This document shows, in pieces, positions 15,370 through 61,865 of a DNA stretch of 64,000 bases. Within the stretch, counting starts at the first letter, position 1, and each line of letters starts with the position of its first letter. Under the pieces are notes generated by a model. It searched no databases. It was not told the DNA's origin and saw only the letters and a list, made by a program, of their open reading frames with translations. The stretch is from contig JAJEKV010000049.1 of assembly GCA_021234155.1 (NCBI GenBank), positions 5,203,001 through 5,267,000 on the forward strand, written 5' to 3'. Source of the stretch: Isoetes taiwanensis (taxonomy: Eukaryota > Streptophyta > Lycopodiopsida > Isoetales > Isoetaceae). The position numbers and the translations under genes are program-made.

Positions 15370-17124
15370 TGATCATTCAAACTTTGGAGAATTTGGCAGT
15401 TTTTACAGCACTCTAGAACTGCATTCTTCAATTTTCTAGCATAAAAGTGTCTAAACCTTGCTAAATATGAAATTAATTGATATATTATGATAAAATATAT
15501 CAATTTGCATGTTTCCATGTTTTGCCGCTATCATTTGATATCAATTGAAGTCGTCAAACCCTATTTTGCTTAAAAATGCTGCATGAGGTTCAAGAATTAT
15601 TTCTCTCTTATTATTACAAGTTTTGACTTAATTTTTATGGCAATGCGTCCTTAACTAAACAAGCTATGATCTAAGGAATTTTTTTTATGTTTATATGTTT
15701 TATTAATATCGTTATTAACTAAAGAAATTATCGTACAGAATTCAAAATAAAAATATGGGTTAAAGTGCTTCAATAACCCCCATCTATAAGTCTCATAAGG
15801 ATAGTAAATGATGCATTCTAATTAACTCTACATAGGAATTTACTTTATCAACACAAATATAGTGTAATTAGGGTATAACCATGCATTATCTAGATCTAAA
15901 CAAGATCTAATATAACAAGATGAATACAAAGAAAGGTTCCAAAGTGCATTGATTATACCCTTATAGGTCTAAAACTCAACAATAATGTAGGTAATGATGG
16001 TTATTGATGAATAGAGGACAATATCACGAAGTTTAGTCATGACTATAAATAAATAGATCAAAAGACTTTCCGTACCTGTTTTTCTAGTTCATCTAAAATA
16101 TTAGCTTATTGCGCTACATTTCTCCCATACGCCTTTTAAATGGCTCAATATATGATAAAAAGGGATATTGAGGTCTTTGGCGTGGTCTTATTAGAAAAAA
16201 AATGAAGAAACCTACTTACTTTCCACTATTATAAAGTTAGACAATGTGTGGCTGCTCCAAAGTGTTGTAGTCTAAGTAGGACCATAGTACATGTAGATCA
16301 ACTTTTATGCTAGGCTATAATTTTTGTAAATTTGAACCTTTGTTGGCAATATATATCTTAATTTTCATGTTAGAATAATATATTATATACAAGATTTGAA
16401 TATAAATAAGCATGGACTATTTATAGGTCCAAGATTAAACCAACTGGATTGAGAAAATTTCTCTATTTATTTGCATTGGCTCTATTCATTTTGTCCCCTA
16501 CAATGATAATATGATTTCTCATCGTTTATAAGATAATCTTTGAAAGGTCTAAGTGGACTTTCTTATACATTCAAAGTAACCCTTAACTACTTAATTTTTG
16601 TGCTTCGATATCATCTTTTAGATAGACAATCCTCCTTAATCAACTAATATTATCATATATAATGTGATATAAACTATGCTCTAAAGAATTGATTAAGATG
16701 ATGATGTTCTTGACTTTTAAATGAGAGGTCATATAGATCAATAATTGGCATCGGCATAACAGTCTATCTTGATCTTCTTTAGTCACACCTTTTCATATTT
16801 TTCCTTGGTTCATCTTCCATTGTTATCTCAACTTTAGGAAGCTTTGAAATATGGTGATTGAAGTTCATATTCAAGGCATAAATCTAGAGATCAAATATGG
16901 AAAACATTTGACGATAACTTGGAATTAATAATAAAAGTTTTAGCCCAAACCTAGCAATAGATATTTTTTTTTTATAGAGGATCTCACGAATATCCTAAAA
17001 TTCAGCTTGAGATCTAATAAGGTAAAGAAGTTATTGATTTAAAATGAACCTGTGGACCAGTAATGGTCTTAAGTACAGGAATCTTTATTGATTTATCATG
17101 ATCGTGCCTTTTGCTCTTTTTCTT
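15370..17124. other. AT-rich intergenic stretch
   Basis: No ORF, RNA gene or repeat is recognised between the Helitron and the Penelope-like element. Confidence 0.5.
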
Positions 17125-17751
17125 TTTGCTAAACTGACATATTCTAATCTTTTGCTTTATGCTTGAATATTGATATAGTGAAGGGGGATAACCTCAAAGA
17201 AACCCATGACACCTGCTATCCCATACATGACAACCATTCTGATGCTTGTTTTTTGTTTGTGGATGCAGGTAACAGGTTTCTTTGCTCTATACTCAGTATT
17301 CGGTTCTATTTGGACTCGTATTTTGGGTTTAGAAACTGATTACAAGACTTCTACTATGGTATTTGTTAAAATATTTTATCTAGAACATGGAAAACATTCT
17401 GAAACATAAGCTTTGAATGTACTATTGTCTGAGATAAATCATCAGATCATTGAAATATATTGAGGTAATTTATCTTTAACATTTGTGATTTATGGATTTG
17501 CTGATATCAGGGATGGTTATCTGAATAATCTTGAAATTTCTGCTTGAACTATAGACTTCAAAAGTGTATTCAATTTCTGCTGATATAAGTTCATTAGTCT
17601 TTAAGTTGCATAGAAATAAAATGTACCAAGTCTTGGCTTAATCATAATGGCCTGATTATGGTTAAGGCTGCCAATGGATCTGTTTATTACCTTTTAAAGG
17701 TCTTAAACAGATAGTAGTCTGTTCTGACGAATAGATTAAAAGGTTTTTTTT
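17125..17751 (+). repeat. Left pseudo-LTR copy
   Basis: It starts TTTGCTAAACTGACAT and ends AAAAGG plus eight T. It matches the right copy at a constant offset of 7749 with a single difference (17141 A, right copy C). A hydrophobic 67-codon frame (17206-17409) is inside both copies. An acceptor/donor-like GATGCAG|GTAACAG lies at 17264-17277. Confidence 0.95.
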
Positions 17752-17847
17752 ATCGATACTCAGTTTAATGGTTATATCATTAACCAGGACTATTGGTACT
17801 GTTATTATCAGGCTGAATTAATACTAATATTATTTTTCTTATTATAG

Positions 17848-19494
17848 GATCAGCAACAGGAAGAAATAACAGACATCTACAAACATTGGATTAAGGAACT
17901 TGTGGCAATGGACTATGATAAATGCAACATTTACAGTCCAAATGTAGCGGTCCAAACTATTCTGGGTTGCATCAAAAGCAGGGACATCCACTCTTTTATT
18001 ACATTCAAGGAAATTAACCTTTGTGATAAGAATTTATCTCCAGTCTCATACTTGGGGTTCAGTGGCTGGTTCAAGACATTTCAAGGCATGAAAAAGGTGA
18101 ATTTTGAGTTTAATAAGTGCAAAGATATACTGATTGCATTATACAATGATATGAGCAGCATCCTTTACATGAGGACTTGTATGGAGGATGAAGCAGCCCT
18201 CAAATTTATGACAGGTATTTCTGCCCTAGAAGCTGCTAACAACATTGTTCAAAAAACCTTTGATAAGGAAGAGGAAACTATTGATAACAATATAATGGAG
18301 ATTACTGGAGACATGCAGGATTGTTTGTTTTCTGACTTGGATCTTACTGATGAAGATCTTATGAGTATTAATGGCAAAAATCAGAGTGTCCCAATTAATG
18401 TTGAGGCTGGGGATCCTGAACAATGGGCCAATATTAATGTTGAGGCTGGGGATCCTGAACAACGGGCCAATATTAAGGTTCCTGAACTAAATTTGTCTAA
18501 TTCTACATGCTTCCCTGTTATTATTGAACAGACCGTTGAATGTTATGCTGCCATTCATAATCATGCAATATGGAAAAGCATGAATTTTGGAGCATTGGCC
18601 CCCATTGATTCTGATACTTGGATTGCACTCGCTGTAATCAGTGAAGCAGAAATAAAGAATGCCAAACTTGGTGCACATAAAATGGAAAAGGTTTTTGATA
18701 CTCTTGAAGTGGACCTGCCCTTCAAAATGAACTTCTTTGAGCAGACATGCATAAAAAATGCTCCCATTGTAATTGGACAAAAGGGCCATATGGCATTTCC
18801 CAATATTGAAAGAGATGATTACTATTTGAAAAGAATATGGAGGTCCCACTGCCCATATTTCAGATGCATGTGTGAAAAGGAAAAAATTAATACTAAAAGG
18901 AGAAATGAAAAGGGATGCAGATGTGGCATAATTTGGTTTGATCAAGGAATATGGTTCTTGATAAACAACATGGAGGCAGTATACCAGGGCACATCTCCAA
19001 TGGTGAAAATGGTAATCCTGACCAAATTTCTGAACAAAGTCATGAGACCTGCAGTTTTAGCCTATATTGCATACCTTGAGGTCAGAAAGATAATGATCAA
19101 CATGACACTGGAATATGCAAAGAATCCCTTCAAGAACATGAAAGCTATCTTTGGGAACAACAAAGCAGTTGACCTAGCAGAAAAAATGATCAGACCTGTG
19201 AGTTTTTTGAAGGAAAGTAATGCTTCCAACCGCTCTGCTTACTTTAGTAAGCCCTATTCTGCTAGCAACAGTAGCAGATCTTCTCAGGCTTCCATTATTT
19301 CCCCGAAGATGCCACCTAGAATAACCATGGATCCTAAAAAAGCAGATGGTATGGTAGGTCAGCCTGCCACTCCTATACTTGGCAATAAGGCCTTATGCAT
19401 TGATGAGAACTCCATCAATAAGGGAAATTGCAAAGTTATATCCTTGGAGGATAACACCCCCACTAAGCTGGATTTTGTTGCAGACTCTCAGTAA
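17848..19494 (+). CDS. ORF1 of the Penelope-like element (unknown family)
   Basis: The frame is open from 17848, right after TTATTATAG whose TAG is an in-frame stop, so the coding part most likely begins by splicing at that AG; the first ATG inside is MDYDKCN at 17908. The 549-codon product has no recognised domain. Visible features: an acidic region around residues 110-160 counted from 17902; a duplicated 13-residue unit (NVEAGDPEQWANI then NVEAGDPEQRANI) from a 39-bp DNA duplication at 18394-18471; a Cys cluster (C317, C322, C324, C339, C341, same numbering) in HCPYFRCMCEKE and GCRCGIIW that could bind zinc; and a Ser-rich C-terminal tail. As the first ORF of a retroelement it may bind RNA, which is inference. 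No internal stop is present. Confidence 0.7.
   Translation, partial: DQQQEEITDIYKHWIKELVAMDYDKCNIYSPNVAVQTILGCIKSRDIHSFITFKEINLCDKNLSPVSYLGFSGWFKTFQGMKKVNFEFNKCKDILIALYNDMSSILYMRTCMEDEAALKFMTGISALEAANNIVQKTFDKEEETIDNNIMEITGDMQDCLFSDLDLTDEDLMSINGKNQSVPINVEAGDPEQWANINVEAGDPEQRANIKVPELNLSNSTCFPVIIEQTVECYAAIHNHAIWKSMNFGALAPIDSDTWIALAVISEAEIKNAKLGAHKMEKVFDTLEVDLPFKMNFFEQTCIKNAPIVIGQKGHMAFPNIERDDYYLKRIWRSHCPYFRCMCEKEKINTKRRNEKGCRCGIIWFDQGIWFLINNMEAVYQGTSPMVKMVILTKFLNKVMRPAVLAYIAYLEVRKIMINMTLEYAKNPFKNMKAIFGNNKAVDLAEKMIRPVSFLKESNASNRSAYFSKPYSASNSSRSSQASIISPKMPPRITMDPKKADGMVGQPATPILGNKALCIDENSINKGNCKVISLEDNTPTKLDFVADSQ
18394..18471 (+). repeat. 39-bp in-frame tandem duplication within ORF1
   Basis: Two copies start at 18394 and 18433 and differ at one base (TGG versus CGG codon). 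The insertion keeps the frame. Confidence 0.95.
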
Positions 19495-21404
19495 ATATAT
19501 CGTACCTCATATGCTGGAAATCACATAGACACCAGCCTATAGCTATCTACTTGGACTTGGATCAGGCTTTTTTTGAAAAATACAAAATACTTGACATAAT
19601 GTCATCTGCCATTTGGCCATCAATGTTCTATGAACTATGCGGATTAATAAAATCATATTTCCTATCTCTGCTGTGTATATAGTAATTACCAGTACTGACT
19701 AAATACCATGGCACTATTAATAATGTATGGAGAAGTAATATTTAACACATTGTAACTTACAGCCAATACAATGGCCAAATGGTGTGACTGTATTTAAAAC
19801 AATATGCAAAGGTGAAAGACCTCTTAGAGGTTATGATAATGGTGCAAACCAGCTCAAACCGTCTACTGAAGAAATAGAACATGATGTTCTTCTGTTATCT
19901 AAAAGCACCTGGTTCCAATATGTCAGCTACCCAGATGCTTGATTATTTGACTGAATTGGGTAACCATGATTTTGCAAGGAATATGTTGTCTAGGTATTTA
20001 AAAAGTGGTTGCACTCAGAAACTTAAGCCCGCCTCAATGTGTCTCACTTCACTGACGGATATACTGGTTCCAAGCAGAAGCTTAAGAAATCAAGCTCATC
20101 CTTCATTTCCCATAAATTTATCTACAAGATCTGATGGATGCCAAAGGCAACAAAACAGAGGCTGATAGTCTTTATCTTGAACTAGATTATGTAACCTTTG
20201 ATTAGTCAGACCAAGCTCTTGCAAAAAACAGGAGGGCTCATGCAGGGCGTTATAGCACAATCTTTGTTATTGGAATGTGCAATGCTCAATTGAGGGCCCT
20301 GATCCTGATTGCAGTAACAAAAGTAAACGTCAGCAACATTGCCTATTGTTTCTACTCGTTTGGTGTTAAATTTTCAAATTTGGTCTAAAAGGTTTGAGGA
20401 CTTGCCCAACTTGGTGCAAATGAATTTACTCTTTACTTTTAGCAAAGTTTTTCTCTTAGCAGACAATAGTGCGTTCTTGCATGCTGGAAAGACCTGAATC
20501 ATTCCAATTAAAAATACATGCTGGCGAACAATTATTCCAAGATGCCATTGTCTATTTGCTGCCATTGTACCACACTGCAATGATGACTGTTAAGATCTAA
20601 TGTATTCAAGGGTATCTCTTTAAAAGTTTCGAGCCCCAGGCTTTTTGTCTTAGCAAGATAAGTGGATTTTATAAGCTGTACAAATGGTCGTCCCTTAGTT
20701 GATGGCCTTCTTCCTGATCAGGAAGCAAAAAGATTGACTTGGTTGCAGAAGGCATCAAACTCTTGCCATGAGCAACTGATAACCAACTTTTCCTTATCGT
20801 AGTCTGGTAGCCATATGGCTACCACATATGGTGCATATTGCATCAAAGGATGAAGTTCCAACAAGAATTATCAGAAATGGTTTAAAGATGCAGCGAATAT
20901 ACCAGGCTATATTTGCATAACCATGACGTCTCATTTTGTCAAAACATGTTGACTGATTATCTTATGGTTTGAAAGTGGTAGATACGGAGCTATGGCTCTC
21001 ACATCATAATGATTGAATTGAAAGGTTTTTTAACATCAAATTCTGGTTGCTCTGTTAAGGACACATATAAAAAGCATTAAACGACTGGAAACAGCTAAGG
21101 TAGAATCTTCTGTTGTGTAATAATTATGGCACTATAAAAGTGGCTGGAGCACTGCAACATGCACAATGATTACACAGTTGCATTGTTTTGAAAATCTGCT
21201 CCTTTGTTAAAAGGTACAGTTGTCTACGTGCCAGGCGGAAAGAAAGTTCAGATCATACAATTCTGAGATTTACCATCATCTTCATTTACTGTGATAATAT
21301 ATTGGGACTCCCAATAACTCCCCATTGACTCCTTCTGTTCTGCAATTATAAATGCAATTGTGCAGTGACAGGTTTCAAAGATCTAACCATTGGTATTTTT
21401 ATAG
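19495..21404 (+). other. Inter-ORF region, possible intron
   Basis: It opens with a donor-like GTAAAT at the ORF1 stop and closes with TTTTTATAG before the RT frame. A simple join of those two sites would not keep an open frame, so the real splice sites, if any, differ. A 94-codon plus frame (19881-20165) might be an exon but has no recognised motif. Confidence 0.4.
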
Positions 21405-23486
21405 GTAACAAATATGGAGACAAGGACTATTGTAAGAGACATCAACAAATATAAGCATCTCAAAAGCAAAGATAAGCGCAATGACACTCGAATTGTGCAC
21501 ATGACATTTATATCCAAAGCATTGGATGGATTTAATATCAGGAGGGTTTTTCACACAGTTATGTATGAAGTATTCCAAGAAAGGGGAACGGACATTGTCG
21601 ACAAGACTACATTTGCCTGGAGGTACATTCAGCAAATAAGAGATAAGGTATATAAACCATTCATGGTTTTTGCAAGTGAGAGCGCTAAAAAATGCCCATG
21701 CAGAAATCCAAATTTGGCAAAATACATAGACCACAGAATAGGCCACATAAGAACTACGGATCTGGACATAGTTCACAGTCCAAAACTCAAAGAAGCTTTT
21801 AAATATGGTCTCAACCATATACCAGACCAAGCTCTAAACCTCCAACAATTTATGGAGGAATTTGAAAAACTTTGTGAACAGTTTTTTCAAGTGCACAAAT
21901 ATGACCTGCTTGATCTTACAGATGTGGACATCAAAAACATCATTAAGATTCTCATGGTAACAGCCAGGACTGAGGTTATTGACCTCAAAAATACCTTGCA
22001 GAAAAAGAGGTTTTTGTGGCAAGATCCAAATGTCCAGAAAAATGTCATATGGCTGAACAAAAACCTTTATGTGGCTGGACTTGACAAAGCAGCTAATAAC
22101 GCAGTGTTCATCTGCCCAAAGCACATTCGAGACATGGCAATAGAGAGACTCAAAAGTGAAGATTTTCTATCTGTCAGGGACACTCCGGATACAATAAAAA
22201 ATACATGCTACCAGGAGATCATACACCTTATTGGGGATGTGCAGATAGAAAGCAGAAAGTTACCTTATCTTATGGCAACCTACAAGGAGCATAAAGGGGA
22301 GTACCGTTGGCTGACTAATGCTCATAACACTATGTACACTGAGATAGCTGGTCTTATCACAGGAATCTTAAATGATTTCATCAGAATATGGCCTGAAGTT
22401 TGCTTTAGAATGACTGCAAAATATAGGTTGTGGAGTACAAAAAGGATAAATGCATGTTGGATAATCAATTCAGCCTATGATGTAGTTCTGAACTTGCCAA
22501 TTAGAATTCATAATGTATTTGCTGCTGATATCATGAAGTGTTACGAGAACATACCTTTGTACGGTGATGAAGGGATCATCGAAATTCTAAATGAAATCAC
22601 GGACATTATCAGGGAATTTCAAATGGAGAATTACAGGTACTTTGAGCTACTGGTTAAAAATAAGAATGACGACATTAAGGTTAAGTGGGCAAGGTCCAGC
22701 AAAGATAAGGAGAATGTAAGCTGGACATGTATTCCTAAGGATAAATTCAAACAAATAAATGCATGGTTACTCAGCAATTGCTTCATACAAATGGGTAAGG
22801 AGGTTTGGAAACAGATAAAAGGGATTCCCATGGGCTTCTCATGCAGCCCCGCATGGTGCAACATGTACTTGGCATGGTATGAACTCAGGTTTATTCTTAA
22901 ATTAGCTCATAATGGCAGATACTCTGACATATACAGGTTCCAAAATGCTGCAAGATATATCGAAGACCTTAATGTCATTAATGGAGGGAATGTCATGGAG
23001 TTCTTGACCGTTGGTGCGGAACATACAATATACAATCTCAATTTTCTGGGCATCAAGGATGAAACCGAGTACCAACATAATGTGAAAGATAATATACGAA
23101 TAGGAAGTAAGTGTACCTTCCTCAATCTCTCAATTTCTGTAACAGATCATGGAAGGGGCCTGTTTCACCTAAACAGATATGACAAACGAAGCAGGCTACC
23201 CTTCGTAGTAAATAAGTTTATTTGGGCACACAGCTGTAGACCATATAATCAGGCAGCCAAGGTTATTATTTCTCAGATTTTGCCTTACATATATGCCCAC
23301 TCAGATGCCTTAACAGCAGCACATGACATTCAAAATCTTATTGAAACTTTTGCAAGCAATGGATTTGGCAGAGTGAAGCTTTCACAAATGGTGTCCAACT
23401 ACTTGCAAGAGGAGAATTTCCCAGGTACAGTATATGCCATGCAAGACATGATCAGATTCCTTAAGGGGATTATGCAAGCTGGATAG
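21405..23486 (+). CDS. Penelope-type reverse transcriptase
   Basis: ATG at 21414 gives 690 residues; the frame is also open three codons upstream, right after an in-frame TAG that doubles as an acceptor AG. N-terminal part: a Cys pair in KCPCRNPN, then GHIRTTDLDIV (110-120) and DKAANNAVFICPKH, typical of the extended N region in Penelope-like RTs. RT core: TYKEHKGEYRW (289-299), AADIMKCYENIPL with catalytic Asp372, KGIPMGFSCSPAWCNMYL (G470-G474), and the C box ARYIEDLN, where the expected first Asp of DD is Glu517. Then CTFLNLSISV and YDKRSRLPFVVNKF, like the FLDL and YDKR motifs of this group. No GIY-YIG nuclease follows. It would copy element RNA at a chromosomal end or nick. The frame has no internal stop. 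Confidence 0.85.
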   Translation, partial: VTNMETRTIVRDINKYKHLKSKDKRNDTRIVHMTFISKALDGFNIRRVFHTVMYEVFQERGTDIVDKTTFAWRYIQQIRDKVYKPFMVFASESAKKCPCRNPNLAKYIDHRIGHIRTTDLDIVHSPKLKEAFKYGLNHIPDQALNLQQFMEEFEKLCEQFFQVHKYDLLDLTDVDIKNIIKILMVTARTEVIDLKNTLQKKRFLWQDPNVQKNVIWLNKNLYVAGLDKAANNAVFICPKHIRDMAIERLKSEDFLSVRDTPDTIKNTCYQEIIHLIGDVQIESRKLPYLMATYKEHKGEYRWLTNAHNTMYTEIAGLITGILNDFIRIWPEVCFRMTAKYRLWSTKRINACWIINSAYDVVLNLPIRIHNVFAADIMKCYENIPLYGDEGIIEILNEITDIIREFQMENYRYFELLVKNKNDDIKVKWARSSKDKENVSWTCIPKDKFKQINAWLLSNCFIQMGKEVWKQIKGIPMGFSCSPAWCNMYLAWYELRFILKLAHNGRYSDIYRFQNAARYIEDLNVINGGNVMEFLTVGAEHTIYNLNFLGIKDETEYQHNVKDNIRIGSKCTFLNLSISVTDHGRGLFHLNRYDKRSRLPFVVNKFIWAHSCRPYNQAAKVIISQILPYIYAHSDALTAAHDIQNLIETFASNGFGRVKLSQMVSNYLQEENFPGTVYAMQDMIRFLKGIMQAG

Positions 23487-23566
23487 AGACACAGTATCAT
23501 TTTAGAAACGATATGGTTATGGACAGCCCATTAGCATATTAGTAAATGTTAAGCAATATAGGAGGG

Positions 23567-23597
23567 GTAGGGCCTTGGTGGTACAACGAGGCCCTAC
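23567..23597 (+). other. Hairpin just after the RT ORF
   Basis: GTAGGGCCT pairs perfectly with AGGCCCTAC across a 13-base loop, and the stem can extend by three more pairs with G-T wobbles. It lies 80 bases past the RT stop and could be a 3' RNA structure. Confidence 0.6.
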
Positions 23598-23625
23598 TCT
23601 CCTTGTTGTTACCATTAATTATCTA

Positions 23626-23631
23626 AATAAA
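23626..23631 (+). promoter_or_regulatory. Possible polyadenylation signal AATAAA
   Basis: A canonical AATAAA lies 140 bases downstream of the RT stop on the coding strand. Confidence 0.35.
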
Positions 23632-24289
23632 AGTACCACGGCCCACCTGACCTATGGTAGGAGGCAGGGTTTTTTATTACAATAACTTGTTGACTCAATT
23701 GACAATTAACTTGTCTATGCATGTTGCAATTGGCCCTGACATTGCAGGATGAGAACAAAGCATAGCAAACGGAGGACTAGCTGGCAGGAGAAACTAAAGG
23801 ATATTGGAATGCACAATAAATGCACATCCATGATACAAATATGGTAAGAAGCTGGCGAAATATGGAAACATATATTCTTGAAGGTTAGAGACACTCCCTA
23901 TTATGTATGTTAATGTACATCTACAGCCATGAAATACACCTTGCTTTTAACATCCATATGGCTAAATATGGTGACGTGTAAATTAGGACATTATAAAGTC
24001 ACATATAAACTAGGGTATAATGTTAAACTAACGTGAAACAAATTTTAGGTTTTAAAAAAAATGATATGACAGATTCAATCATGAAGACGATGGCCAGGGG
24101 TTAGGGCAGCTGTGGATAGGGACCTCACGGCCATTTGCTGGAAGAACATAAGAATTCCCTTGCTGGAACTGACGGTAATAGGTACTGAATCCTTGCTTAT
24201 AAGGCAACAGATATGCACGAAAATGGCAATACAGGTTTTGGGCAGCATAGCTTCTATGTGCAGATTGGTGTCCTAATCCCGGTTACAAA

Positions 24290-24598
24290 ATGGGAAGGAA
24301 GAAGGGTGATCTAAATGCTGCTACAAGAAAGAGGTTAGCAGAAGAAAAGCTGAAAGGAAATGGGGGAAAGAAGATATTTCAATATCACAATTCAGCTGTG
24401 ATTCCAACTGTTGATAAGGGAAGCACAGTGGGGAAGGATGTAGGAGTGGAAAAAGGGAAGCAGGCTGAGATTGGGGCTGATGGCAAGCCCACAAATATGG
24501 ATGATGGAGATTTCACCTACATCAACAAGATTGCAAGCAAAACCATGGAGAATGAGCCTGGACACTCTAGTATTCTTGGACGAAATTCTAAGGTTTGA
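24290..24598 (+). CDS. Candidate N-terminal exon of the Penelope-like element
   Basis: ATG in the favourable context ACAAAATGGGAAGG opens a basic peptide, MGRKKGDLNAATRKRLAEEK, that continues for 102 codons. It ends at SKV-TGA next to a donor-like AAG|GTTTGA (24592). It has no stop, no domain and a plausible nuclear-localisation-like start. Its place, downstream of the RT and upstream of the right pseudo-LTR, suggests that in a head-to-tail copy it would be spliced across the repeat into ORF1 at 17848. This is inference; alternatively it is a small independent ORF3. Confidence 0.5.
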   Translation: MGRKKGDLNAATRKRLAEEKLKGNGGKKIFQYHNSAVIPTVDKGSTVGKDVGVEKGKQAEIGADGKPTNMDDGDFTYINKIASKTMENEPGHSSILGRNSKV

Positions 24599-24873
24599 TA
24601 GATGTAGATGTTTTTTCTTGAAGGATCTACTCAATTTAGATTATGAAGCTTTAGATCAGACCTGATTTATGCCAAAAAGTGGTCTGAGTTTAGTAACCAT
24701 TACCTTATAGGCATTAAAATAGATTAATGTCATTTCTGCCTTGGATCTAAAATAGTTCAGATCTAGGAATTGTTATAAATTAGATTTATGGCACTTATAT
24801 GTATAACAGCAAGCATGAACTAGATATATTAGGGCTACTGAATTATTGACAGACTAATGTGGCCTGGTTCATA

Positions 24874-25487
24874 TTTGCTAAACTGACATCTTCTAATCTT
24901 TTGCTTTATGCTTGAATATTGATATAGTGAAGGGGGATAACCTCAAAGAAACCCATGACACCTGCTATCCCATACATGACAACCATTCTGATGCTTGTTT
25001 TTTGTTTGTGGATGCAGGTAACAGGTTTCTTTGCTCTATACTCAGTATTCGGTTCTATTTGGACTCGTATTTTGGGTTTAGAAACTGATTACAAGACTTC
25101 TACTATGGTATTTGTTAAAATATTTTATCTAGAACATGGAAAACATTCTGAAACATAAGCTTTGAATGTACTATTGTCTGAGATAAATCATCAGATCATT
25201 GAAATATATTGAGGTAATTTATCTTTAACATTTGTGATTTATGGATTTGCTGATATCAGGGATGGTTATCTGAATAATCTTGAAATTTCTGCTTGAACTA
25301 TAGACTTCAAAAGTGTATTCAATTTCTGCTGATATAAGTTCATTAGTCTTTAAGTTGCATAGAAATAAAATGTACCAAGTCTTGGCTTAATCATAATGGC
25401 CTGATTATGGTTAAGGCTGCCAATGGATCTGTTTATTACCTTTTAAAGGTCTTAAACAGATAGTAGTCTGTTCTGACGAATAGATTA

Positions 25488-25518
<31 letters not shown>
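24874..25518 (+). repeat. Right pseudo-LTR copy, ending in a T run
   Basis: It matches 17125-17751 up to the eight-T end, then extends to 26 T (25493-25518) before GCATAATATGG. The left copy instead continues into ATCGATACTC and the ORF1 acceptor, so the right copy is cut at the T run. Confidence 0.95.
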
Positions 25519-27163
25519 GCATAATATGGCTAGGCACATTTCCCAAGAAATCACATATGTATGAACGCCTAAATGGACGAATTTTTGGAATTTCTTTTCT
25601 TGCAAAAGGAATCTTTTTTTATGCTCGTCATGATGGTGGAATTTTTTTTGCAAAACAAGCCTTTTCATTTTTTGCTTTGAAAGGGGTATGAAAATGGTGA
25701 GGTGGCAAGTAGGCAAGATGAGTTGGCAATGTGAGGATGACATGGCAAGTAGGGGTAACGATGTGTCAAATGACTTGGCTAAGAATATGTTTTCTAGTCA
25801 AAACATGAGATGATGTGGAGATGATGTTTATGACATGTAGATGATGAAAGTATAATTATGGCACCGCTCAACTACCTTATTTAAGAATGGAGTTCCAATT
25901 TGTGGGGGAAATTCTAATTTCAAAACTAAAATTCAAATTCCTGTTCTTTGCCTACGTCATGTTCTTTGGCTCCCTGCCGCAAACTCCAATCCATTGTGGA
26001 TATGGATGTCAACGAGGTAATCTGTCCACAAACTGGCATTTCAAACAGGAGAAAACGAAGAAGAACCAAGGAAGAAGAAATGTTGAAGAAAAGACGCCAA
26101 AGAAAAAGAAGAAGAGAGGAAAAATTGGAGCTTGCAGAATTGGCAGAAGGATCTGGTTCATCAAGAAGTGCAAGCAGTAAACGTCATATTGTCCTTAATT
26201 TGCTAACGTCTTTCCATAAACAGACCAAAAGAATTGAGGATAGCATGAAGAAAGAAATTTTACTTGAGTTTTTGAGGGATAAAACATTGGAAAAATTTAT
26301 AGATGAAGAATTAAAGGATTTGAAAGCCAAGAGCATCGTCATTAGGAGCCTTTGGGATCTATGAAGACTGTGAAACTCTCTACCAGATGACTGCCTAGCA
26401 GCCAAGAATAGCTGTCTTGCAATGTCTGTACCATGCCGTGCAGATTCTGAAATAAGTGACAAAATCAGCCAGAGAGATCTTGGAAAGGTATTAGGTGTTC
26501 ACCCAAGAAACCTGCAAATGGCAAAGAAAAAGAGGGAAGAGATCGATTACAATGGTGGAAAATGGGTTTCTTATAAGAGGGCTAAAAGATTCGATGCAAT
26601 TTCAGAGGAAACAGATAGAAAAGATTCAACATTGGATTGAGAACACCAGAGTGTCTCCTAGCATAAAGGATGTTAGAACTAGAAGATTGGAGAGAAATGT
26701 AAGAGAAGAACATGTTGTCCACTATCTGGAGAAATCACAGGTTAGTTTATAAATTCTGTTATACGTGTTTTCTTAGTTATGGTGCTTAGTGTGGTGGTGC
26801 ATGTGGTGGTTATTGTGTTATACAGTGATTGTGGTGTACTGTATGCAGCATGTGAATTGTGTGTAGTTGACTCTAAAATGCAGCTAAATAATATTTAATG
26901 TTGGGAATATTAGAACATGACATAATTGAGTTACAAGTACTGTATTCCTTTACTGGGTCTGTGTATACAGTCTAAAAATATTTGAGAATGACAGATAACT
27001 AACTGATCCTAAGTTTAATTGAATTGATAAAGACAAATTTTTGTCACATAAAAGTACATCTCTGTTGGAAAGTTTATGATATATTTAAAAAAAGAGCATA
27101 TGTTACAAAATTTGGCTTTTCATTAAAAGCTCTGTACCCGAGAACTAAATTTACATGCATTTC

Positions 27164-34003: not shown

Positions 34004-34499
34004 TGTTAGAACTTAGAGAAATTTATCAAGACAATTTCACTTACAAGATCCGCATTCCTTTACTAGCACAATAATCATTATAGTTTCAATAGTCACTCAA
34101 TTAATACGAACCATTGGAATTCAATACCACTGTATATCGATCAAAACCCCTTAAGCATTAGTTTACTTCTTCTTTCATTGTGTATTGCCGGATCGATCTC
34201 GTCGATCAACCCTAGCAGATTTACTCACCTTAATACGAACAGATCCGTCGGTTGTAGTGCCGACATGGCTGAGTCCGGCGGTTAAGCCATAACCGAGATT
34301 TCAAATAGGACTTGGCTCCACTTTATTCGTCCAGCATATTTCACCCTAACTTAGAAATATTTAGGGTATTAATACAATGCTTGTCTTAACCATTAGGGAA
34401 CCATTGAATCATAACGAACCATTGAAGGATCAACCAATTGAGGTAATAACCGAACTAATATCACAGTCATTATCTCACAATGATCTGACACTTTTAACA
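34004..34499 (-). repeat. Copia 3' LTR
   Basis: It matches the 5' LTR at offset 4522, with five substitutions and no gaps. Confidence 0.97.
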
Positions 34500-34509
34500 T
34501 TCCCTCTTC
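34500..34509 (-). other. Copia polypurine tract
   Basis: GAAGAGGGAA on the minus strand directly adjoins TGTTAAAAG of the 3' LTR. Confidence 0.85.
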
Positions 34510-34696
34510 AGATCATTTCTGCTGTAACCAGACATGATTTAACCAATTTACTGAAACATAATCTTCTTTCCTGCAAGTGGTTCTTCTGATTAAATGTCTC
34601 AGAATCTTGAACATAAATTTCCTCTTTAACCATATTCACTGTTCATGTTCTGTGCATGTGAATATCATATAGACATGTGTTTCAACTTCATGATAT

Positions 34697-37600
34697 TCAA
34701 CTTCCTCTTAGCAATGTCTGTACTGGTCTGATAGATGCAGATTTCTTTTCTAGTGTTTCAGCAGAACTCAGTATCTTCTGCAGAACTGAGACACCAAGTA
34801 TTCCCTTGAATTTTTCAAACTTGACTTGTGTCAAAGCTTTTGTAAAAATGTCTGCTGCTTGCTCTTGTGTGCTCACATATTCCACTACTATGTTCTTTTG
34901 AGCCACCATTTCTCTTATAAAATGCATGCTGAGTTCTATGTGCTTTGTTCTTTGGTGAAGAACCGGATTTTTAGTGATAGCAATGCAGCTTTGGCTGTCA
35001 CACAATAATATAGTTGGATCCTTTTGCATGATCCCAAGTGCATTTAATATTCTCCTGGCCCATACAATCTCCTTGGCTGCAAGTGTTGTGGCAGCATATT
35101 CTGCCTCAGCTGTAGACATGGCAATACTTGATTGCTTCTTGGATTTCCATGCAACTGATCCTCCTCCAAGCAAGAGTGAAAATCCAGATGTTGATTTCCT
35201 GCAGTCTAAATCAGATGCCCAGTCTGCATCACAGTATCCCATGAGTGTCATATTATTATTAGAATAACAGATACCCTGTTGTTGAGTTCCGTTAAGGAAT
35301 CTTAACACTCTTTTTGCTGCCATCCAATGCGTCTTCCCTGGATTGTTTGAGTATCTACTTAGCAGGCTTACAGCATAAGCAATGTCGGGCCTTGTGCAGT
35401 TGGATACATAGAGCAAACATCCAATCAATTCCCTGAAAGGAGTGCTTTCCATCTCTTCAGCTTCTTTTATTGTTTTAGGACACATGTCCTCTGAGATCTT
35501 ATGCCCTGGAACTAATGGTGTACTCACTGATTTACAAGATTCCATACCAAATCTTTTCAGCATGGCTTGTATATTTGAAGTTTGTGTAAGAGACAGTTTC
35601 ATATTACCTCGATCTCTGTGTACTTCATAAATCCACTTATTTTCTATAATGTTTTTTTCTTGAGGTTTCTTGACAATTTCATAAGTGTTTGTTCTCTCGA
35701 AGGCATTCATTTCTTCTTTCATGGCTTTCTGCCATTCCCTTGAGTCTACTCCATTTATTGCTTCCTCATAACTGCCAGGCACATTAGGTTCTAGTATTGC
35801 CATAATATTGTCCAATTCAATTTCATTTCTGAGCCTTTTGCTTTTTCCTTCTTCTCCCCTTCCATACAATTCAGGTTCAATGTTTAGATTAGCCTTGAGT
35901 CTTTCTGCTTCAGTTTTCCTTCTTCTTTTCTCAATAGGTTTGTTCTCATGATCTATACCTTCTTCATGGCTGCCTAATTTATTTTCAGAATTCGTACCTT
36001 CCACATGTTCAACTAATTTTTCTGCTGGCTGGTTGTGGGTATCTTCATCATCAGAACTGTCATAATTCAAATCATCCAATTTCTTCGCATCATCACTATT
36101 ATGTGATTTGGTATTCACTTTCTCTGCAGCTTTCTCTCTATTCCTATAAAGTATTCACTCATCAAAGATTACATCTCTGCTTAGAATTAATTTTCCTTTA
36201 ATGGGCTCATACAACAAATACCCTTTTGCTTGCTCATCATAGCCAACTAAATAACCCAAACATGCTCTGTCATCTAATTTCCTTCTGGTCTCTTCTGGCA
36301 CATGAGCATATCCAGCACATCCATAAACCTTGAATGATTCAAAAGAGGGATAGGTGCCATACCACAAGTGATCAGGTAATTCTCCATTGAGACTTCTTGA
36401 TGGCAGTTTGTTTTGGATCTTTACAGCTGTCTTGACAGCCTCCTCCCATAAATAGTTGGGCAGCCCAGCATGTTTTAACATTGCTCTCACTGCATTTAAG
36501 ATGGATCGATTCTTCCTTTCTGCAACTCCGTTTTGCTGAGGAGTATGTGAACAGGTAAGTTGTCTTCTTATTCCATTGTGTAAGCAATATCTGTTAAATC
36601 TGCCAGAAACAAACTCACCACCTCTGTCAGTTCTTAAACACTTGATCTTTTTACCTGTTTGTCTCTCCACTTCAGCTTGATAGATTTTGAACGCTTCAAA
36701 AGCTTGGTCTTTAGATCTTAGTGTGTATACTTTTGTCTTCCTTGTATAATCATCTATAAAGGTTATAAAGTACCTTTTCCCATGAATACTTCTCACATTT
36801 AGTGGACCACACAAGTCACTATGTATGATTCCCAAAATTTCTTTTGCTCTTTTAGCATGTTTTGGGAAAGGTAGTCTGCTATGCTTCCCTAGCAAGCAGC
36901 CATTACACTTAAGGTGATCATCATTAGTTTCTGTTCCAACAATTAGGCCCTTCTTGATCATATAGATAATATTATTTACATGAGAATGCCCAAGCCTTTC
37001 ATGCCACACTTTAACATTTGGTACTGTCACTGCATTTATTGCTTCAGCAATGTCATTATGAAAACCAAAGAGTCTTCCAACACGTTTACCCAAAAACTTT
37101 ATTTCATTATTCATCAAAATGCTACAACGAAGTTTATCAAAATGCACTTCATATCTAAGGTCTACTAACTGAGTTACAGAGATAAGATTCTTGACAATGT
37201 TTGGAACACAAAAAACATTGTCAAGTACAATCCGATTTCCTTCTAAATCATATAGTTCCAAATATCCAGCTTCTTCAACTTTCTCTAGCTTCCCATCACC
37301 CATTTGAACAAAGCTGGCGCTCCTCCTAGTCTTCTCCTTAAGTCTAGAACTAGACTTTATTACGCTTCTCTCAGCTCCACTATCTATGATAAATAACCCA
37401 TCATCATCTTTAGTTTGATTTTCTGAAACTGAAAAAGCTTGACAGATTTTTACCTCAGCATTTTCGTCCACCTCTTCTTCTAATTCTTCTTCAGTTTCTC
37501 TTGCTACATTGACAGCAGAGGCTTTCCCTTTATTTTTATAAGCTCCTCTGCCCCTATAACTGCCTCCCCGTGCATTATAACCTTTTCCTCTTCCAGCAGC

Positions 37601-38500
37601 CCTGCCTTTACCTTTTCCCTGATCCTTAGGAGTGGAGCAGTTTATGGCAATATGTCCAAAACCTTCGCAGTTATAACATCTATTCTCTTTGGTTCTCTTG
37701 GGACAATTTAATTTTATATGACCATATTGATTGCACAAATAGCAAGGTCCAACCTTACCTTTATCCCCACGCCCTCCAGCATACAAGATTTCAGTCTGCT
37801 CATCTTCTTCAATCACTCCTTTTTGTTCCAGCTCAGTTCTTATCATTGTTTCAGCTTGCCTCTTATCCCTAGCTATATTTCTCACAAGTGTGGACAAATG
37901 ATCAAATTTTGAAAAGGCTCGCGAAAGTGACAGTACCTGGTATTCATCTGTAATTGGAACTCCTGTTGCATCCAGATCTGCTACCAGATTATCAAATTTC
38001 TGGAAAAATTCCACAAGATCATCATTTTCATTATATTTGAGTCTTCTAAGTTCTTTCTCCAGTACATCTAGTTGAGAAGAGGTTTTCTTCTCATAGTTTG
38101 CCAGCATAAACTCCCACATCTACTTTGGAGTTTTTCCCCTCAGCTGTAGCAAAATGCTCGAACTCACCTTACTGCTTATCACACTTTTTGCCTCCAACAA
38201 GCGTGATTTTGTAGATGCTTCCAAACTTGAGCTTCTAGTTCTTTCAGAGACACTAGAAGCTCCCTTACCAACTGCTTCTCCAGTTGAACTGCCTCCACTA
38301 GTAGCATCTGCATATGTCTTCCCTTTGCTTGGGCTTGGACTGAAACCTTGAGTTACAGTTTGCTCTTCTCCTGTAACTAAGTCCCACAATCCCTCAATTT
38401 CTAAAACTTCTTGAACCTTTTGTTTCCATACCTGGAATCCTGCACCACCTTTAAACACATCAATGGCACTGAGAAGAGATGCTCAAAGTCTACTGGCCAT
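34697..38500 (-). pseudogene. Copia gag-pol polyprotein with RT core deleted
   Basis: ATG at 38500 starts MASRL and meets TGA at 38483-38485; further stops in the same frame are TAG 38120-38122 and TGA 36155-36157. Order: gag (FKGGAGFQVWKQKV), two zinc knuckles (CYLCNQYGHIKLNC, CYNCEGFGHIAINC), protease (FIIDSGAERSVI), integrase with HHCC (HERLGHSH, CNGCLLGK) and DDE residues (IHSDLCGPL, LRTDRGGEF, QQNGVAERKNRS), then NKWIYEVHR fused directly to DRGNMKLSLTQTSNIQ. About 200 residues of RT, including the YVDD box, are missing there (junction near 35610) without loss of frame. RNase H is intact (GYCDADWASD, STAEAEY, HQRTKHIELSMHFIRE, ADIFTKAL). The element cannot reverse-transcribe by itself. 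Confidence 0.93.
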
Positions 38501-38511
38501 TTAAGATACCT

Positions 38512-38523
38512 GCTCTGATACCA
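38512..38523 (-). other. Copia primer-binding site (initiator-Met tRNA)
   Basis: TGGTATCAGAGC, the standard plant copia primer site, lies two bases inside the 5' LTR. Confidence 0.95.
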
Positions 38524-38525
38524 CT

Positions 38526-39021
38526 TGTTAGAACTTAGAGAAATTTATCAAGACAATTTCACTTACAAGATCCGCATTCCTTTACTAGCACAATAATCAT
38601 TATAGTTTCAATAGTCACTCAATTAATACGAACCATTGGAATTCAATACCACTGTATATCGATCAAAACCCCTTAAGCATTAGTTTACTTCTTCTTTCAT
38701 TGTGTATTGCCGGATCGATCTCGTCGATCAACCCTAGCAGATTTACTCACCTTAATACGAACAGATCCGTCGGTTGTGGTGCCGACCTGGCTGAGTCCGG
38801 CGGTTAAGCCATAACCGAGATTTCAAATAGGACTTGGCTCCAGTTTATTCGTCCAGCATATTTCACCCTAACTTAGAAATATTTAGGGTCTTAATACAAT
38901 GCTTGTCTTAACCATTAGGGAACCATTGAATCATAACGAACCATTGAAGGATCAACCAATTGAGGTAATAACCGAACTAATATCACAGTCATTATCTCAC
39001 AATGATCTGACACTTTCAACA
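38526..39021 (-). repeat. Copia 5' LTR
   Basis: It starts the element on the minus strand; the primer-binding site follows directly. Confidence 0.97.
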
Positions 39022-45528: not shown

Positions 45529-45556
45529 TTTTTTTTTTTTTTTTTTTTTTTTTTTT
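45529..45556. repeat. Poly-T run
   Basis: Long uninterrupted T tract; on the minus strand it could be the poly(A) end of a retrocopy, but no source sequence is visible beside it. Confidence 0.7.
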
Positions 45557-56580: not shown

Positions 56581-59010
56581 TACTATATCCGAACTTCTCC
56601 TGCTCCTGTCGTGCCCTTGTTTCCCAACTCGTATAGGACTAGGTAGTCAGCAAATGCCCTCTGCTTTTCTGCATCTCTTCCCACATATTTACACGTGCCC
56701 GACATTGCCGGGCATAAGTTGAGATGCATCTCAAGACTTTGTGGAACTTATCGATTCCCTATATTGTTGATGTTAGAGTTGGGATGTATCTCAAAGACTG
56801 ACATTAGGACACATTGACTTTAGCATAATTTTCGATTCGAAGTTAGCAATCATACCATAATAAGGGGCAACTTGTTCACAAAGACAGCATTCTCAAGCTC
56901 TGTATAACACATCTATGCAAAGTTCAAACAACCTATGATCCCATATAGTATTTATGGATTGTAGAGTTCACTTCATTAATATTGTTAATTGTCCTGCTCC
57001 TTGTCATGCCCTTGCGTCGAGAAAGGGGGGAATTTGAGGATTGGCACATTCGTGCGGTGGATGTCCAGTTTTTCTTTTCGAGGATGTTTCCTCGGACACG
57101 AGCCATCATTTTGACGGTCGGATTAACAAATGGAGTTGTTTTGGTGCCCCGATACTTAAACCCTATTGAATTCGTAGGGTTTGGGATTCGGCAGCCTTCC
57201 CTACCACCGAAGTGCTCGAGAACTTGCGTGCGGGGTTCCCTAGAGGGCTTGAAGAGAAACCCCAAGGGGGAGGAAGAAAACACCCTCCCCAGGTACTATA
57301 TATCCAAACTTGTCCCCGCTCCTTGTCGGTGCCCTTAAGGCCGAGAAAGGGGGAATTTGGGGATTGCCACATTCGTGCAGAGGATGTCCAGTTTTTCTTT
57401 TTGAAGATGTTTCCTCGGACACGAACTACCATTTTGACGGTCGGATTAACAAATGGAGCTGTTTTGATGTTCGATACTTAAACCCTATTGAATTCGTAGG
57501 GTTTGGGATTCGCAGCCTCTCCCTACCACCAAGTGCTCTCGAGAACTTATGCGTGCAGTGGTTCCCTCGAGGGCTTGAAGAGAAACCCCAAGGGGGGGAA
57601 GAAAACACCCTCCCCAAGTACTATATATCCAAACTTGTCCCGCTCCCTTGCCGGTGCCTTTGGGCGAGAAAGGGGGAATTTGGGGATTGGCACATCTGCG
57701 GTGGTGGATATCCAGTTTTTCTTTTCGAGGATGTTTCCTCGAACACGAGCTACCATTTTGAGGGTCGGATTAACACAGAGCCGCTTTTGATGTTCGGATA
57801 CTTAAACCCTATTGAATTGTGAGGGTTTGGGATTCGCAGCCTTCCCTACCACCGGGTGCTCGAGAACTTGCGCAAGTGTGGTTCCCTCGAGGGCTTGAAG
57901 AGAAACCCCAAGAGTGGGGGGGGGGAGAAAACACCCTTCCCAAGTACTATATATCCAAACTTGTCCTGCTCCTTGCCGTGCCCTTGCGTCGAGAAAGGGG
58001 GGAATTTGGGGATTGGCATATTCGTGTGGTGGATGTCTAGTTTTTCTTTTCGAGGATGTTTCCTCAAACACGAACTACCATGTTGACGGTCGGATTAACA
58101 AACGGAGCAGTTTTGATGCTCCGATACTTAAACCCTATTGAATTCATAGTGTTTGGGATTTGGCAGTCTTCCCTACCACCGAAGTGCTCGAGAACTTGCG
58201 TGCAGGGTTTCCTCGAGGGCTTGAAGAGAAACCCCAAGGGGGAGGAAGAAAACACCCTCCTGTGTACTATATATCCAAACTTGTCCCGCTCCTTGTCGCA
58301 CCCCCTAAGGCCAAGAAAGGGGAATTTGGGGATTGGCACATTAGCATGGGTGGATGTCCAGTTTTTTTTTTTCAAGATTTCCTCGCATTACCCAGCTACC
58401 ATTTTGACCGGCCGAATTAACAAATGGAGCTGTTTTGGTGCCCCGATACGTAAACCCTATTGAATTCGTAGGGTTTGGGATTCGGCAGCCTTCCCTACCA
58501 CCGAAGTGCTCGAGAACTTGCGTGCAAGGTTCCCTCGAGGGCTTGAAGAGAAACCCCAAGGGGGAGGAAGAAAACACCCTCCCCGCCCTGCTCCTTGTCG
58601 TGCCCTTGCGTCGAGAAAGGGGGGAATTTGGGGATTGGCACATTCGTGCGGTGGATGTCCAGTTTTTCTTTCGAGGATGTTTCCTCAGACACGAGCTACC
58701 ATTTTGACGGTCGGATTAACAAACGGAGCCTTGTCTTGTTTCCCAACTCGTATAGGACTGGGTAGTCAGCAAATGCCCTCTGCTTTCTGCATCTCTTCCC
58801 ACATATTTACATGTGACATTGCCAGGCATAATTAAGTTGAGATGCATCTCAAGACTTTGTGACATTAGAACTTATTGATTCCCTATATTGTTGATGTTAG
58901 AGTTGGGATATGTATCTCAGAGACTTTGTGACATTAGGACATATTGATTTTAGCATAATTTTCGATTCGAAGTTAGCAATCATACCATAATAAGGGGCAA
59001 CTTGTTCACT
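56581..59010 (+). repeat. Higher-order satellite: ~323-bp units between two ~270-bp flanking repeats
   Basis: From about 56992 to 58732 there are five full and one partial unit. The inner marker AAACCCTATTGAATTCG starts at 57158, 57480, 57804, 58130 and 58452, giving periods of 322-326 bp. Outer repeats starting TTGTTTCCCAACTCGTATAG occur at 56617 and about 58738, 2.1 kb apart. A piece of the unit (CTATATCCGAACTT...) lies before the first outer repeat, implying a larger repeat. Each unit is open in several frames because of its composition, but I do not regard these as genes. Confidence 0.9.
57158..57182 (+). repeat. Telobox-like inverted repeat in satellite unit 1
   Basis: AAACCCTA and TAGGGTTT form a perfect 8-bp stem around TTGAATTCG. 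The arm equals the plant telobox. Other units carry it at 57480-57504 and 58452-58476, with mutated arms at 57804 and 58130. Confidence 0.85.
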
Positions 59011-61639: not shown

Positions 61640-61865
61640 TACATATTCACAAAGACAACATTCTCAAACTTTGTATAAGACATCTATGCAAAGTTCAAAC
61701 AACCTACGATTCTATATAGTGTTTATGGATTGTAGAGTTCTTCATTAATATTGTTAACATCTCATGGCCACTTCCTCAAACGATGTGAGCAGAGAACATA
61801 TGGGTGCTCTAAGCATACATATCGATTCGAATTTAGAAACCATGCCATAATAAGGGCAATCTGAA
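61640..61865 (+). repeat. Relic of the satellite flank at 56876-56990
   Basis: TTCACAAAGACAACATTCTC, GCAAAGTTCAAACAACCTA and TTTATGGATTGTAGAGTTC match the sequence before the array. ATGCCATAATAAGGGCAA matches the outer repeat end. Confidence 0.8.

Follow-up and report, generated by a model that had tools for sequence, protein, structure and literature searches.

Penelope-like elements (PLEs) with and without an endonuclease (EN) are both already known in plants, according to PMC9033089, which describes Dryad as an EN(+) element of conifers and lists EN(−) PLEs for Selaginella moellendorffii, Pinus taeda, and Picea abies. EN-deficient elements carry two open reading frames (ORFs) and are typically 4–6 kb long (PMC6431247); they are largely restricted to chromosome ends, and the pseudo-long terminal repeat (pLTR) structure is tied to EN-containing elements (PMC3846280). 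The repeats of PLEs stem from tandem or partial-tandem units, and in an element of Anolis the point at which reverse transcription begins is internal to the RNA and close to where the next ORF starts (PMC11167929). Spliceosomal introns have also been described in their pLTRs (PMC11722881). Here we analyzed a 64-kb stretch of the Isoetes taiwanensis genome (contig JAJEKV010000049.1, positions 5,203,001 to 5,267,000; hereafter the window, numbered from its first nucleotide), in which a retroelement of 8.4 kb spans positions 17125–25518 and is bounded by two 627-bp direct repeats. It is probably a young insertion of an EN-less retroelement of the Penelope class whose repeats are pLTRs generated from tandem read-through RNA. 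An earlier reading of this DNA (the original prediction), made from the sequence alone, had already assigned the element to the Penelope branch; its view of Dryad as the only plant family of PLEs does not hold in light of the three species listed in PMC9033089. The features of the element given below all lie on the forward strand.

The reverse transcriptase and the search for an endonuclease

The reverse transcriptase (RT) ORF encodes 690 aa (21414–23486, in a frame open from 21405) and was characterized through its translation, its homologues, and a structure model. The frame has no internal stops and its best relative matches with E = 1.6e-117 over 99% of the RT length, which rules out chance. 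In a search restricted to proteins of 0.55–1.75 times the RT length, the sequence groups with 50 EN-less proteins at 28–37% identity. The seven RT motifs quoted in the original prediction are all found in the translation. When the AlphaFold2 model (predicted local distance difference test, pLDDT, 87) was compared with the PDB using Foldseek, telomerases occupied ranks 1–18 as well as the top 17 VIA rows, above the group II and LINE/R2 RTs. Judged by the predicted fold, the RT belongs to the telomerase/Penelope branch, such that the proposed separation from retroviral, LINE, and group II RTs agrees with the structure ranking. By sequence, however, no telomerase was found, with 0 PDB matches for the RT.

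A connection with GIY-YIG-bearing Penelope-type proteins was provided by P0051, a distant relative of the RT (E = 7.2e-12). A search seeded with P0051 gave 286 proteins at E ≤ 0.01, and the counts for P0051-type proteins rest on the best 120 of these matches. All nine P0051-type proteins scanned for domains carry GIY-YIG near the N-terminus (residues 59–163), eight having been chosen because GIY-YIG was already indicated and P0157 falling slightly under the curated cut-off; RVT_1 lies C-terminal of GIY-YIG in five of them, that is, in all those where RVT_1 matched. Such an N-terminal GIY-YIG followed by an RT is reportedly the permuted Penelope architecture of Craig et al., from 2021. A ubiquitin hydrolase domain (UCH, PF00443) was frequent among the P0051-type matches listed and was C-terminal in all three such proteins scanned.

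In a tree of 69 sequences, a branch with 100% support in the Shimodaira–Hasegawa-like approximate likelihood ratio test (SH-aLRT) split 30 P0051-type proteins from the EN-less proteins, and the window RT fell on the EN-less side. Its input comprised 38 of the 50 EN-less relatives, each of at least 580 aa with a YxDD-type box, plus 34 P0051-type proteins from the 120 listed; of these 34, 30 were kept (RT region longer than 350 aa), half of them (15) with a GIY-YIG profile match and 15 without. A tree of 20 hand-picked rows, in which seven of the eight P0051-type rows had a GIY-YIG match, recovered the same split (100/100) and joined the window RT with nine EN-less rows (99/98). A tree had been proposed with the original prediction; those obtained cover the EN-less relatives and the P0051-type proteins and place the window RT on the EN-less side. 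The terminal branch of the window RT is long (1.5–1.6), as are those of P0042, P0043, and P0046, and its position inside the EN-less group is therefore unsure. Both sides share a CxC motif, which reads CPC in the window RT (residues 94–96, 21693–21701) and lies N-terminal of the HIRTTDL motif. It was found in 82 of 85 listed P0051-type proteins and in 36 of 43 EN-less relatives, counted only where the downstream H-motif was present (85 of the 120 and 43 of the 50, respectively); P0003, P0006, and P0032 miss the pattern, yet the alignment has CxC in all three.

The EN-free architecture of the original prediction was upheld by both searches made for GIY-YIG. Three ORFs of the element gave no GIY-YIG match to Pfam, and a GIY-YIG profile run against the six-frame translation of the window gave a best E of 0.85 outside the element and of 1.6 within it. 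The same profile matched none of the RT proteins of the 50 relatives, some of them partial, at E ≤ 0.9. Since it was built from the N-terminal domains of 24 P0051-type proteins, the Pfam scan is the more direct test for a C-terminal GIY-YIG; at E ≤ 1e-3 the profile recovered 40 of 95 held-out P0051-type proteins and missed 55, many of the listed ones being short. The 50 relatives might possess a separate endonuclease gene. A hammerhead ribozyme was not found either, with no match to an Rfam hammerhead at E ≤ 10 over positions 16500–26500.

Direct repeats and a proposed route of insertion

The direct repeats of 627 bp announced at both ends of the element are present at 17125–17751 and 24874–25500, as revealed by blastn self-comparison and a repeat search. 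They are 99.84% identical, with a sole mismatch at 17141 and a start-to-start spacing of 7749 bp. At the right border the two copies differ: the 5′ copy ends in T8 (17744–17751) followed by ATCGATACTC, whereas in the 3′ copy the counterpart is a tract of T26 (25493–25518), the 3′ end of the insertion, followed by GCATAATATGG. The T-tract end lies about 100 bp ahead of the point where the ORF1 frame opens. The repeats are best read as the overlap of one 7749-bp unit with 627 bp of its tandem neighbor, that is, as the pLTRs that had been suggested, and the geometry fits a tandem or partial-tandem origin, which would make them the product of copying one unit plus part of the next rather than true LTRs. 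No integrase, RNase H, or gag Pfam domains were found in the ORFs of the element, whereas the copia element of the same window shows those of integrase and gag. If both repeats came from one template, the single difference in 627 bp indicates a recent insertion and suggests recent movement.

The junctions are less telling. TTTTTGC occurs at the 5′ junction (17123–17129) and again at the 3′ junction (25514–25520), and the pair may represent a 7-bp target-site duplication; a microhomology junction is equally possible. This evidence is only suggestive because the Ts are part of the tract, TTTGC likewise opens the internal repeat copy, and TTTTTGC occurs nine times in the whole window. A comparison of the entire window against itself (E ≤ 1e-5) revealed no further copies, and a targeted search of the window with the repeat and the element body gave weak matches only (best E 0.008 over 27 bases). 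None of five telomeric dimers tried occurs anywhere in the window. The left flank includes a faint match (17064–17098) to 36 columns of the RT gene (83%, E 0.095) that is probably due to chance but may be an old fragment. Another long tract, T28 at 45529–45556, lies outside the element and has no matching element end beside it in a comparison made with the low-complexity filter on.

From these features we infer a route in which tandem units would be, or would once have been, present elsewhere in the genome, and the unspliced read-through RNA of such a tandem would be the template. Reverse transcription would start within this RNA, where the U8 tract precedes ORF1; a 3′ end terminating in A, exposed at a break or T-rich site, would act as the primer, and slippage would lengthen the tract to T26. 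This mode of priming is proposed because no endonuclease was found and because a model of this kind exists for EN-deficient elements (PMC3846280). Copying would then cover one full unit and 627 bp of the upstream unit, and the 5′ end would be closed via the short match TTTGC. More weakly, the tandem transcript could have as its first exon an ORF of 102 aa near the 3′ end, joined in phase 0 by splicing across the repeat to ORF1 at 17848 and perhaps also to the RT at 21405. An extension to a whole EN-less lineage appears rather improbable to us; such a lineage would insert away from telomeric repeats, at breaks or T tracts, form pLTRs by starting reverse transcription at an internal U tract, have a naturally working YIED box, and let ORF1 and RT share one 5′ exon spliced across the repeat.

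Reading frames, catalytic box, and alternative explanations

Two long ORFs are present, as predicted: the RT and ORF1, an open frame of 548 aa (17848–19494) without internal stops, 530 aa of which follow a GTG at 17902, with an ATG at 17908. ORF1 was rightly described as unknown, since the libraries searched returned no credible relatives and only chance-level rows. It contains a cysteine cluster (CPYFRCMC...GCRCG) for which zinc binding is a guess, and two tandem 39-bp copies (97%; 18394–18471) that amount to an in-frame duplication of 13 aa. The spacer between ORF1 and RT (19495–21404) has a non-coding appearance, with 4.7–6.4 stops per 100 codons over the three forward frames and a longest open run of 95 codons, and could be an intron ending in ...GGTATTTTTATAG. 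The ORF1 frame opens right after an acceptor-like ...TTATTATAG, continuing with GATCAG (17848), and the RT frame opens right after the acceptor-like ...GGTATTTTTATAG, continuing with GTAACAAATATG (21405). The original prediction called the element intron-containing; spliceosomal introns in it are putative, suggested by these frames opening exactly at acceptor-like sites.

The basic 102-aa ORF (MGRKKG..., 24290–24598) is a candidate 5′ exon in the tandem reading, or else a small third ORF. Whichever of three training sets was used, none of the 230 windows of a disjoint null reached its codon score, and the ORF is therefore likely coding. As a positive control, 101-codon windows of RT or ORF1, scored under the codon model of the other ORF, beat the 95% mark of the null in 16 of 21 cases. 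This disjoint control supersedes an earlier one (0 of 726 null windows as high), whose windows overlapped and whose null had three of six regions in common with the background. Just ahead of the stop, after 24592 and in phase 0, there is a donor-like AAG/GTTTGA (the slash marks the splice point) that agrees with the donor consensus at six of nine positions, and we hypothesize splicing across the repeat from this exon to ORF1 and possibly RT. Upstream, TATAAG (24198–24203; 13 TATA-type motifs in the element) is a possible promoter element in the tandem reading, and AATAAA (23626–23631; eight in the element) is a possible polyadenylation signal 3′ of the RT. A strong RNA hairpin (23552–23610), first noticed through a mir-3202 match below threshold (E 0.33), is located directly after the RT stop codon; the 81-nt fold of 23540–23620 reaches −36.4 kcal/mol (z −5.85; 0 of 200 shuffles equally stable) and the wider region z −3.57. 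It may serve in 3′ processing or in RT binding, or may be a small repeat that inserted there. Taken whole, the 627-bp repeat likewise shows more structure than its shuffled versions (z −3.43, 20 shuffles).

The two long ORFs had been called undamaged, which is correct as to internal stops and not as to the catalytic YxDD box, which reads YIED instead of YIDD or similar as in the relatives. In an alignment covering 23 of the 51 relatives, position 517, encoded by a Glu codon in the window RT (22962–22964), is Asp in all 23, whereas the invariant motif A Asp (D372, 22527–22529) and the second Asp of the box (D518) are retained. The pattern [YF][IM]xD[LI] is present in 44 of the 50 relatives (DD in 43, YIND in P0047) and has no match in P0026, P0044, P0045, P0048, P0049, and P0050. 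The window RT also differs at nine further residues and three deleted columns where the alignment is at least 95% conserved, so YIED may belong to its lineage. The RT is possibly inactive or altered in this copy; its activity is doubtful, and because of YIED the two open ORFs do not imply an active copy. The question that the window RT opens is whether Glu at the first YxDD position permits DNA copying.

The closest contest is over the fate of this copy. That YIED abolishes catalysis, leaving a dead or non-autonomous copy as a recent relic whose active master lies elsewhere, has a chance only slightly short of even. The Asp found in every aligned relative speaks for it, as does Ty1 RT, in which replacing the first box Asp (D210) or D129 stopped polymerization; the requirements of Ty3 are looser, however (PMC2148107). 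Moreover, few mutations are expected since insertion because the repeats are nearly identical, and the other departures from conserved columns, together with the long branch, suggest that YIED was perhaps inherited rather than new. Somewhat less favored, but still a serious contender, is a linear organization in which the 627-bp repeat would hold the promoter, ATG 17908 would start ORF1, and the frame of 102 aa would be a separate small ORF or noise, such that no exon crosses the repeat. The ATG (GGCAATGG) is usable without splicing, a pLTR promoter has been proposed for rotifer Penelope families and the Anolis element (PMC3846280; PMC11167929), and the weakness of the putative donor counts against the tandem transcript. 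Both long frames opening exactly at acceptor-like sites is harder to reconcile with a linear organization, and so is the coding score of the 102-aa frame, although a separate third ORF would score likewise.

Two further explanations concern what the element is. A degenerate member of the permuted group, having lost its N-terminal GIY-YIG and been moved in trans by a relative, would account for an RT recognizably akin to N-terminal GIY-YIG proteins and for the shared CxC motif. However, the RT falls with 38 EN-less proteins, apart from the P0051-type, and GIY-YIG was seen in none of the 50 relatives, some of them partial; from both, the absence of endonuclease looks old and family-wide, and we regard a recent loss as unlikely. 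Least probable is a domesticated, single-copy host RT gene with the 627-bp repeat as a local duplication: no second copy was seen and a catalytic residue is altered, but the repeats stand at both ends of the unit, the T tract is lengthened at the 3′ junction, and other retroelements are present in the window. A young insertion formed by copying tandem RNA is thus the reading we retain.

Among those other retroelements is a Ty1/copia element on the reverse strand (34004–39021), with 496-bp LTRs that are 99.0% identical, the 5-bp ATTCA on both flanks, and a primer site, TGGTATCAGAGC, which we take to be plant-typical. It has integrase and gag domains, and its coding part is broken into several open stretches. 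Elsewhere in the window there are a gag fragment and LINE-like endonuclease and RT fragments; together with the copia element they agree with a plant origin of the DNA. Imperfect tandem copies in steps of about 320 bp (84–92% identity) extend over 56600–59010, with more near 61640–61860.

Comparison with described Penelope-like elements

The Naiad/Chlamys clade has a CxC motif before the RT, pLTRs, and microsatellite-biased insertion. The window element shares with this permuted clade a related RT with the CxC motif, and the pLTRs and microsatellite-biased insertion are further points of likeness; in contrast, no GIY-YIG was found in it and its RT lies across a fully supported branch. Chlamys is named in PMC12477816. 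Dryad, of the Penelope/Poseidon type, is a plant member of the Penelope class as well, but it is EN(+), whereas no GIY-YIG was found here. With the Poseidon element of Anolis (PAc) the likeness is in the repeat geometry, which there arises from reverse transcription starting inside tandem RNA near an ORF start (PMC11167929); PAc differs in its C-terminal endonuclease and its hammerhead ribozyme, neither of which was found in the window element.

EN-less PLEs are mobile RTs near telomerase in lifestyle, and a young, near-complete copy at a T-rich site lacking telomeric repeats would bear on how they enter chromosome arms. With the window element, a family otherwise met here as proteins only also gains a member whose genomic context is complete. 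Our literature search, based on partial texts, found no report of the absence of endonuclease together with pLTRs and the absence of telomeric repeats, and the combination appears unusual given that pLTR structure is tied to EN-containing elements (PMC3846280). We give a minority chance to the window element being a distinct variant. With the EN(−) PLEs, namely Athena and those of Selaginella, Pinus taeda, and Picea abies, it has in common a Penelope-class RT, the lack of GIY-YIG, and two ORFs. A telomeric location or telomeric repeats at the ends are general, if not universal, among them, whereas the window has no telomeric repeats for the five dimers tried; at 8.4 kb the element exceeds their typical 4–6 kb (PMC6431247). 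Compared with those families, as far as their descriptions go, what sets the window element apart is that it combines pLTRs with a T-rich site free of telomeric repeats.
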